From assembly GCA_029260755.1 (NCBI GenBank), contig JAJDCQ010000059.1, positions 1 to 64,000 of the forward strand: a stretch of 64,000 nucleotides of DNA, written 5' to 3'. A model generated the notes under the pieces. It worked only from the letters and a program-made list of their open reading frames with translations, was not told the origin of the DNA and searched no databases. The position numbers and the translations under genes were made by a program. Below are positions 8,780-11,972 of this stretch, in pieces. The DNA is from Planctomycetota bacterium. GTDB lineage: Bacteria; Planctomycetota; J058; JAJDCQ01. Every line of letters begins with the position of its first letter. The first letter of the stretch is position 1.

Positions 8780-9766
8780 ATGGAGCCCATCCGCGTCGCC
8801 GTCACGGGTGCAGCCGGTGCGATCGGCTACGCCCTCGTCCCCCGGATCGCCTGCGGGGCCGTCTTCGGGCCCGACCGCCCGGTCATCCTGCAGCTCCTCG
8901 AGCTCACGCCGGTGCTGTCGGCCCTCGAGGGCGTCCGGATGGAGCTCGAGGATTGCGCGCCCTCGACCCTCGCCGGGATCGAGTGCACCGACAAGGCCGA
9001 GGAGGCCTTCGACCGGGCGCAGGCCATCTTCCTCGTCGGCGCCAAGCCGCGCGGGAAGGGCCAGGAGCGCAAGGACCTGATCCGCGACAACGCGGGCATC
9101 TTCAAGGTCCAGGGCAAGGCGATCAACGACGCGGCCAGCCGTGACGCCCGCGTCATCGTCGTCGGCAACCCGTGCAACACCAACTGCCTCATCGCGATGA
9201 GCCACGCCCCGAACATCCCGGCCGCGAACTGGTCGGCGATGGTCCGGCTCGATCAGAACCGGGCGAAGGCGCAGCTCGCCAACAAGACGTCGCGGCCGGT
9301 GAGCGACGTCAAGAAGATGGCGATCTGGGGCAATCACAGCGCGACCCAGTACCCGAGCGTCCAGCACGCGACGATCGGCGGCCGGGCCGTCCGCGACGTG
9401 GTGACGGACAAGGAGTGGCTCGACGAGAGCTTCATCAAGACCGTCCAGCAGCGCGGCAAGGCGATCATCGACGCGCGCGGCGCGTCGAGCGCGACGAGCG
9501 CGGCGAACGCGGCGATCGACCACATGCGCGAGTGGTTCCTCGGAACGCCGAACGGCGACTGGTCGTCGATCGGCGTGCCGAGCGACGGCTTCTACGACGT
9601 CCCCGAGGGGCTCGTCTGCGGCGTCCCGACCGTCTGCCGCGGCGACGGGACCTACGACATCATCCGCGACCTCGAGCTGGACGACTTCGGTCGCCCCCTC
9701 TTCGCCAAGACGGTGAAGGAGCTCGAGGAGGAGCGCGACGCGGTCCGGGATCTCCTCGGCAGCTAG
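8780..9766 (+). CDS. mdh: Malate dehydrogenase (NAD-type, type 2)
   Basis: This 328-residue protein oxidises malate to oxaloacetate. The nucleotide-binding loop is [10 protein letters not shown], and [13 protein letters not shown] matches the Thermus/actinobacterial type-2 branch. The substrate loop [15 protein letters not shown] keeps both arginines but has Gln in place of the usual Met. The catalytic histidine lies in [22 protein letters not shown] precedes the ATG at 8780; the longer frame to 8732 lacks a good site. It probably works with the sucCD products just upstream. Confidence 0.97.
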
Positions 9767-9797
9767 CGAGCGCCTCTTCGCACGCAGATCGCAGGAC

Positions 9798-9823
9798 GGG
9801 GCGCGTCGTCTTCGGCGCGCCCC
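9798..9823. terminator. GC-rich hairpin after mdh
   Basis: GGGGCGCG (9798-9805) pairs with CGCGCCCC (9816-9823) around a 10-nt loop, 32 bp after the mdh stop. It is a plausible terminator, though no T-tract is seen. Confidence 0.45.
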
Positions 9824-9880
9824 GCTGCGATGATGGGGATGTCACCACGGAGACACGGAGAACACGGAGGATCTTCTGCA
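9824..9880. repeat. Half copy (left arm) of palindromic element B
   Basis: GCTGCGATGATGGGGATG followed by three CACGGAG-type units repeats the left flank and arm found at 10054-10097. No matching right arm is seen nearby, so this looks like a truncated copy, separated from the complete one by a REP-like palindrome. Confidence 0.65.
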
Positions 9881-9938
9881 TCGCGCCGTCCGCCTGGGAT
9901 TCCAGGGGGATTCTTGGTGTGAGTCCTGGTGTGAATCC

Positions 9939-10043
9939 AGGGGTCAGGTCCAGGATTCACACCGAAGGGGCCAGGTCACACCAGAGGGGCCAGTTCAGCT
10001 ACTGCGACAGATTCGCTCGTGTGATTCCTGGACCTGACCCCTT
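9939..10043. repeat. REP-like palindrome with GGGGTCAGGTCC core
   Basis: The 24-bp left arm (9939-9962) and right arm (10019-10043) are near-perfect reverse complements, with core GGGGTCAGGTCCAGGA and outer TCACAC. The 56-bp loop carries two AGGGGCCAG motif copies. Sequences of this kind are known companions of REP-associated IS200/IS605-like tyrosine transposases (RAYT); no such transposase is in this window. The 9767-10300 stretch holds no gene. Confidence 0.65.
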
Positions 10044-10053
10044 CGATTCACGC

Positions 10054-10251
10054 GCTGCGATGATGGGATGAACCACGGAGGCACGGAGACACGGAGGATC
10101 TCCGGAGCGAGCGCCGAGCGCGCTTCTTCGCTCGCGGGGCAGTAGGCGACGGAGACCTCTTCTCCGGGCGTTCCAGCTGCGCTGAGACTCTGGCGCGTTC
10201 TCCGAAGCTCCTCCGTGTCTCCGTGCCTCCGTGCCTCCGTGGTTCCATCCC
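10054..10251. repeat. Palindromic element B, arms of 8-bp CACGGAGN units
   Basis: The left arm (about 10065-10107) is GGGATGAACCACGGAGG followed by further CACGGAG units and ending TCCGGAG. The right arm (10200-10251) is its reverse complement, with one extra 8-bp unit. Smaller dyads lie in the loop (for example GCGAGCG/CGCTCGC). The element is non-coding; frames crossing it are repeat artefacts. It ends 50 bp before the serA promoter. Confidence 0.75.
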
Positions 10252-10300
10252 TCGCCGAAGGCGAACCTGCTGCCGTCCCGCCGTTGATCCGACCGGGGGC

Positions 10301-10376: not shown

Positions 10377-11972
10377 ATGGCCATCGCGCGCGTTCTCATC
10401 TCCGATCCGGTCGCCGACGAGTGCGTCGCGCTGCTCCGCGATGCGGTCGGGATCGAGCCCGACTACCGTCCGAAGCTGCCGCCGGCCGAGCTGCTCGCCT
10501 GCATCGGGGACTACGACGGGCTGATCGTCCGGAGCGGCACCCAGGTGACGGCCGACGTGATCGGTGCGGGCGAGAAGCTGCGCGTGGTCGCGCGGGCGGG
10601 CGTCGGGGTCGACAACGTCGACGTCGATGCGGCGACCCGCCGCGGCGTCCTCGTGATGAACGCGCCCGAGGGCAACACGGTCAGCGCCGCCGAGCATGCG
10701 ATCGCGCTCATGTTCGCCGCCGCGCGGCACATCGCGGCGGCCGACGCTTCGACCCGGGCGGGGAAGTGGGAGCGGGGCAAGTTCCTCGGCACCCAGCTCA
10801 CCGGCAAGACGCTCGGCCTCCTCGGGCTCGGTCGGGTCGGCCGCGAGGTGGCGAAGCGGGCCCGCGGTCTCGAGATGGACGTCGTCGCGTCCGACCCGAT
10901 GGTGAGCGAGGAGCAGGCGCGGCGCTGGGAGGTCGAGCTCGCGCCGCCCGACGAGGTCATCGCTCGGGCGGATGTCCTGAGCGTCCACGTCCCGTTGACC
11001 GACCGCACCCGCGGGCTCGTCGGGGCGGCCGAGATGGCCCGGATGAAGCCGGGCGCGATCATCGTGAACGCCGCCCGGGGCGGCGTCGTCGACGAGGCCG
11101 CCCTCGCGGCGGCGCTGGCCGAGGGGAAGGTCGCCGCGGCGGGCATCGACGTCTACGCCGAGGAGCCGCCGCCGGGCGACAACCCCGTCCTCACCTCGCC
11201 GCACACGTCGTTGACGCCGCACCTCGGGGCGAGCACGCGCGAGGCGCAGGAGCTCGTCGGCGTCCTGACCGCCCGCCAGGTCGTCGGCTATCTCCGGGAC
11301 GGGTCGATCGTGAACGCGGTCAACATGTTCCGGATCGACCCGAAGGTGGCGGCGCGGATCGCGCCGTGGCAGGACCTCGGCGAGAAGCTCGGGAGCCTCC
11401 AGGCGCAGCTCCTTCACGGCGCGATCGAGCGGATCGAGATCACGACGGCGGGCGACGCGCTCGACGACGAGAGCAAGCCGATCCTGGCGCGCGCCGTTCT
11501 GACCGGGTTCTTCCGCCACTTCCTCGAGGCGCCGGTCAACTACGTCAACGTGGCGCACTTCGCTCGCGAGAAGGGGATCCGCCTCGTCGAGAGCGCCGAG
11601 GACGATGCCCGCGGCTTCCGCGACCTGCTGACCGTCGAGGTGACGACGAGCAAGGGGAGCCGGCGGCTCGCCGGCACCATCTTCGGCGAGCGTCGCCCGC
11701 GGATCGTCTTCGTCGACGACTACATGGCCGAGGTGCGGCCCGAGGGCCACATGGTCCTCTTCGCGAACGACGACACGCCGGGGATCATGGGCATGGCGGG
11801 GTCGCTCCTCGGGAAGAACGGCGTGAACATCGCCTACATGTCGATGGGTCGCGACGCCGAGGGCGGGACGGCCCTGGCGGTCCTCGGGATCGACGGGCCG
11901 ATGCCCGACGCGGTCCTCGAGAAGCTCGCGGCGAGCAAGGGCATCGTGTGGGCGCGTCGGGTGGCCCTCTAG
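10377..11972 (+). CDS. serA: D-3-phosphoglycerate dehydrogenase (long type)
   Basis: This 531-residue protein catalyses the first step of serine synthesis from 3-phosphoglycerate. The catalytic region runs to about residue 315, with the NAD loop [13 protein letters not shown], the AARGGVVDE arginine block and the [14 protein letters not shown] histidine block. An intervening (ASB-type) domain and a C-terminal ACT domain ([15 protein letters not shown]...[10 protein letters not shown]) follow. This matches the long, mycobacterial/Bacillus-type SerA, which can be regulated by serine through the ACT domain. The ATG at 10377 is preferred over the frame starting at 10215, because upstream codons run through repeat B and the promoter. 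Confidence 0.97.

Follow-up and report, generated by a model that had tools for sequence, protein, structure and literature searches.

Two dispersed repeat families side by side between mdh and serA in a Planctomycetota genome, one of which looks like the gene-less form of a GxxExxY nuclease-family unit

Why should the gap between two ordinary genes, mdh and serA, hold a broken copy of a repeat, a palindrome, and then a complete copy of that same repeat? The arrangement was first described within a 64,000-nucleotide stretch of a Planctomycetota genome (contig JAJDCQ010000059.1, hereafter the window). The initial annotation proposed that a REP-like element had inserted into, or mediated the duplication of, a repeat that we refer to as element B. 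The gap lies between the malate dehydrogenase gene mdh (8780-9766, + strand), which is the upstream flanking gene, and the downstream phosphoglycerate dehydrogenase gene serA (10377-11972, + strand). After mdh is a short G+C-rich hairpin with 12-nt arms (9797-9824, +), which we infer to be a possible terminator. It is followed by B1 (9824-9880, +), which consists of a left end, GCTGCGATGATGGG, and the left arm of a B element whose right arm is absent. A palindromic element with GGGGTCAGGTCC cores (9926-10053, +) comes next and directly abuts B2 (10054-10264, +), a complete B element with a left end, a left arm of tandem CACGGAG units (10068-10102, +), a centre, an inverted right arm of CACGGAG units (about 10199-10251, -), and a terminal hairpin, TCGCCGAAGGCGA, typical of B ends (10252-10264).

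We first asked whether these features could be recovered independently, and found that the observation holds. The end GCTGCGATGATGGG is present at 9824-9837 and 10054-10067 as an exact match, and CACGGAG units follow both copies. These are the only two exact copies of that end in the 12.26-Mb genome (pattern GCTGCGATGATGRG, 0 mismatches), while 29 more carry one mismatch, against 5 for the reversed control. Six exact CACGGAGNCACGGAG matches lie in the window, all of them in this gap, whereas shuffled sequences give a mean of 1.98 even with two mismatches allowed. The core GGGGTCAGGTCC occurs exactly at 9940 (+) and 10030 (-), such that the two cores face each other. As single-stranded DNA, both units fold far better than dinucleotide shuffles, with z scores of -7.3 for 10054-10262 and -7.95 for 9926-10053. 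Some details required correction: the palindrome unit is about 128 nt rather than the 105 bp originally given, the complete B ends in the further hairpin at 10252-10264, and most B copies in this genome are bounded by TTCGCCTTCGGCGAA-type hairpins, which the two left ends here lack.

We next examined the palindrome. In a genome search that scored 40 of 565 candidate places, it has at least 45 further copies over most of its length, at 81-89% identity and with recurring ends. The genome encodes three Y1_Tnp genes, and two of these (loci L061 and L063) have inverted GGGGTCAGGTCC on both sides, while the third (L062) has none. The ends of the L063 unit read as the two halves of the window palindrome. 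The best family hit of the L063 protein (1468-2445 of the locus) is the REP-associated tyrosine transposase, but its score of 66.7 bits falls below the curated cut-off of 80 bits for model NF047646, and it bears a C-terminal stretch matching DnaA models. We therefore call the palindrome a gene-less copy of a RAYT-like element, although reading of the palindrome copies did not reveal the GT(A/G)G head of canonical REPs (PMC2817692).

Element B is likewise a dispersed family. The arm motif CCACGGAGRCACGGAG occurs 450 times in the genome, 227 and 223 times per strand, with 0 occurrences of the reversed pattern. We sampled 56 groups of arms (the window plus 54 loci, 221 kb in all, leaving out three stray single hits of 16-17 bases). 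Of these, 32 are a left and an inverted right arm, 10 (including the window) have a doubled left arm (++-), 2 have a doubled right arm (+--), and the rest are single or odd arrangements. Terminal hairpins of the TTCGCCTTCGGCGAA type occur beside B and only once elsewhere in those 221 kb. By reading, about 7 of the 12 other doubled-arm copies share one spacer and 3 share a second one, as amplified sub-families would, while the window composite shares neither. Left and right arms of one copy are no more alike than arms of different copies (31 copies, p 0.26), so arms are shuffled among copies.

These data allowed us to evaluate the proposed origin of the composite, which is partly supported. Both parts are dispersed repeats and the first B lacks a right arm, as claimed. 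We found that 0 of 29 other palindrome loci have a B arm within 700 bp, so the composite is not a recurring unit. The 14-nt end that only B1 and B2 share genome-wide points to a local duplication or a target duplication at this site, and we could not tell which. That the palindrome inserted into B was not shown, and we assign no order to the events. The left arms of B1 and B2 are of different sub-types, and we initially considered that they must therefore be separate copies; however, because arms are mixed within ordinary copies too, sub-type does not tell which left arm belongs to the right arm, and this idea was dropped. A comparison of the mdh-serA gap among close relatives had also been suggested as a check on insertion, but serA lies next to mdh in none of 88 mdh loci examined outside this genome (8 from order relatives and 80 from a broader contig collection, in which an MDH search gave only relatives at 50-59% identity). 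No genus or family relative was among the genomes compared, and no allele of the gap lacking the palindrome was found.

Having established that B is dispersed, we then sought a gene-bearing form of it. The genome holds two GxxExxY genes, members of a PD-(D/E)XK nuclease family of undescribed function, each of which lies inside its own inverted arrays of 8-10-bp units. One of them, at locus L064, scores well above the curated cut-offs (152.6 bits against 35 for TIGR04256, and 147.8 against 22 for PF13366) and lies between B-type arms that match each other as an inverted repeat over 35 of 35 nt. To determine whether this architecture is general, we surveyed 198 genomes of the phylum, 95 of which have GxxExxY, and scored the best gapless inverted repeat between the 200 bp on each side of 71 such genes chosen by protein. 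Among the hits without a locus, taken in rank order down to contig C32 of genome G015, 40 were retrieved and 7 were left out: five starting within 800 bases of a contig start, one with an internal stop, and one further row (contig C589 of genome G149). One locus (L186) is cut by a contig end, and one with an internal stop (L204) was kept. Arms scoring 14 or more were found at 59 of 71 loci, and at 60 of 71 when one locus (L170) is taken at its corrected position, where it scores 17. In contrast, this score was reached by 0 of 71 loci with shuffled flanks, 0 of 67 with flanks 400-600 bp away, 27 of 600 random pairings of flanks from different loci, and 0 of 79 mdh loci (one of 80, L105, was left out). 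The arms are tandem arrays of an 8-10-bp unit with a common look but different letters, including CACGGAG, CACAGAG, CACGAAG, CGCAGAT, ACAGGAT and others, and one genome may hold several nucleases with different units, as in genome G023.

The variety of units led us to ask whether unit type follows nuclease relationship. The nearest nuclease from another taxonomic family has the same unit class in 46 of 59 cases, while label permutations give a mean of 18 and a maximum of 31. Arm similarity and protein identity correlate among different-genome pairs (Spearman 0.38; maximum 0.21 in 2000 permutations) and, weakly, within genomes (31 pairs, p 0.03). As a test of prediction, we took the second GxxExxY gene of this genome, whose arms are CGCGGAT units, and searched for gene-less copies of that unit. 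We found 944 matches at up to two mismatches against 10 for the reversed pattern, although an arm can match in two registers. One such copy lies at 4-171 of the window, followed at about 205-240 by a remnant resembling the palindrome family (GGATTTCACACGAGAGGGGCCAGGTC). Genomes with 5 or more hits of CCACNGAGNCACNGAG carry GxxExxY in 26 of 29 cases and the others in 69 of 169 (Fisher 1e-6); when the genomes are split into size classes, the p-values are 0.0008, 0.04 and 0.06 from small to large. There were exceptions to this covariation. Two genomes with many CACNGAG arms, G049 and G159, lack a GxxExxY hit, though both are incomplete drafts, and in G015 the one nuclease has GAT-type arms while the gene-less pairs are GAG-type.

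We also looked for sites at which the unit is present in one genome and absent from another. In seven congeneric genomes, one gap before a gene that we read as dnaJ by its first residues holds the GxxExxY unit in two and other or no content in five. In two of the latter (G199 and G174, loci L236 and L238) it holds other ORF-like sequence, one resembling a macro domain by eye, so this gap may be an insertion hot spot. In Sphingomonas parapaucimobilis the unit sits between fabD and fabG, where S. paeninsulae and Rhizobium indigoferae have about 30 bases, and in Bacteroides finegoldii it sits after radA, where Parabacteroides distasonis has 13 bases. In these cases the unit runs from arm to arm. 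No target-site duplication was readable by eye at these sites or at the B copies, and the empty gaps differ too much in sequence for an exact junction; together with the fact that the 14-nt repeat in the window flanks B1 plus the palindrome, not B2, this leaves the presence of a target duplication undecided. Phage records contained no GxxExxY gene, but viral contigs contained 3; among these and loci from 8 plasmid-collection records, 6 of 11 loci have arms scoring 14 or more. Those of Treponema, Prevotella, Persicobacter, Fusobacteria and one viral contig do not, and the gene on the Fusobacteria bacterium plasmid (L231) is flanked by a direct repeat (AGATTTAATCCGTGTACCTAT) rather than an inverted array.

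One orthologous pair of nucleases has a dN/dS of 0.07, and the family keeps the residues of an active PD-(D/E)XK nuclease, with invariant E, D and ExK residues and near-invariant Q and Y, a pattern similar to that of Cas4 and RecB-type nucleases. Sequence similarity to Cas4 models is weak (best-matched family in 10 of 19 members, best E 1e-4); CRISPR context was not examined. A sequence search of the PDB found no solved relative, and structure prediction with AlphaFold for two viral-contig members gave an unusable model (pLDDT 40).

To test whether such arms are particular to GxxExxY, we chose genes of another fold, PF05635 (S23p, four-helix bundle), as a comparison. These genes also lie between inverted arrays in 27 of 30 loci (L342-L371; far flanks 0 of 27), which ruled out the idea that only GxxExxY has such arms. 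The PF05635 units are 7 bp, however, and show no agreement between unit and protein (rho -0.13). This extends to many other loci what is reported for the 23S rRNA intervening sequence (IVS) of Coxiella, which has tandem heptamers before its ORF and terminal stems (PMC4990558), and it also means that an array does not by itself prove that the enclosed protein moves it.

Taken together, we read the stretch as a chance neighbourhood of two non-autonomous repeat families, in which the palindrome is a miniature of a Y1-transposase (RAYT-like) element that exists in this genome and B is the gene-less form of a nuclease-linked element, a small GxxExxY gene lying between inverted arrays. We put the probability of this reading at roughly 0.55. 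In this view, the GxxExxY nuclease would recognize the unit arrays, cut at the array-bounded segment or its hairpin or cruciform, and so promote copying or insertion of array-bounded DNA in cis and in trans, leaving many gene-less copies. The analysis itself demonstrates the arms, the gene between arms, the gene-less copies, the match of unit type to nuclease clade, presence and absence at single sites, and purifying selection on one nuclease pair, while binding, cutting, mobility, and the role of the nuclease in driving spread are inferences from these data. In the window, the private 14-nt end suggests that a local duplication or a target duplication joined B1 and B2 with the palindrome. A broader reading, that GxxExxY nucleases define a widespread, undescribed class of selfish element in bacteria, each recognizing its own inverted array of 8-10-bp units and driving the spread of both its own gene and hundreds of gene-less array pairs, of which window element B would be one, is possible but somewhat less likely than not.

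Other explanations were weighed against this reading. The originally proposed insertion into, or duplication of, one B element by the palindrome gains support from the private 14-nt end, the position of the palindrome directly between the B copies, and the missing right arm, but the left arms differ in sub-type and doubled left arms occur elsewhere without a palindrome, so we hold it only tentatively. It is also conceivable, though unlikely, that GxxExxY genes are passengers, with the arrays being spread by another agent such as host recombination, replication slippage or a different transposase, and with small genes such as GxxExxY and PF05635 being captured between arms. The finding that one architecture holds unrelated proteins and the shuffling of arms among B copies would fit this view, while the difference in period between the protein families, the agreement of unit class with nuclease clade across taxonomic families, and the large gene-less family belonging to each of the two nucleases in this genome count against it. 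Least likely is that the arms act as RNA, as hairpins at transcript ends (terminators or RNase III substrates) kept by selection in gaps. The folds are very stable, several copies start close after stop codons by eye, and 23S rRNA intervening sequences with terminal stems are cut out by RNase III (PMC4990558); RNase III excision was not assayed here. This view does not explain a nuclease gene between arms or the unit-nuclease agreement, and the left and right arms of B copies are not matched to each other beyond family level.

Among described systems, RAYT/REP (REPIN) elements similarly pair a gene between two inverted repeats with many dispersed gene-less copies, and their protein and repeat trees have been compared and reported alike (PMC2817692). 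The window palindrome works like this kind, whereas GxxExxY is a PD-(D/E)XK-type protein rather than a Y1 transposase, and its arms are arrays of short tandem units rather than a single palindrome. The 23S rRNA IVS with S23p resembles these units in having a small ORF between terminal inverted repeats, but the GxxExxY units lie between protein genes, carry another protein and have 8-10-bp units, and the window copy is not in 23S rRNA. MITEs derived from DDE insertion sequences are also short, inverted-repeat-ended and present in hundreds of gene-less copies. B shares its arm type with a gene-bearing element as such MITEs do, but the enclosed gene is not a DDE transposase; a DDE transposase with these ends was not sought.

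The window composite is ordinary in itself, and what appears to be new is the pairing of a nuclease family with its own unit arrays, common in this phylum and seen in others, which we read as a mobile or formerly mobile element class that works like RAYT/REP with another enzyme. In the open-licence PMC papers searched, which leave prior description elsewhere possible, mentions of GxxExxY were incidental, PF13366 appeared only in a listing, and nothing was found for PDDEXK_3, for two arm 15-mers, or for four helix bundle proteins with inverted repeats, while searches on the IVS and heptamers gave the Coxiella paper as the relevant one. A cognate DNA array gives a direct, testable substrate for each GxxExxY protein, would explain a large class of unexplained dispersed repeats, and would add a PD-(D/E)XK nuclease to the enzymes tied to gene-less repeat families. 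Dispersed repeats in this genome extend beyond the families considered here: at loci L311, L315, L316, L323, L325 and L327-L330 we observed another one, which begins GATGGCAGCGATGATGGGGGCGAAG, contains GCGAGGCGCGCC in most copies, and has a start that resembles the 14-nt end in the window.
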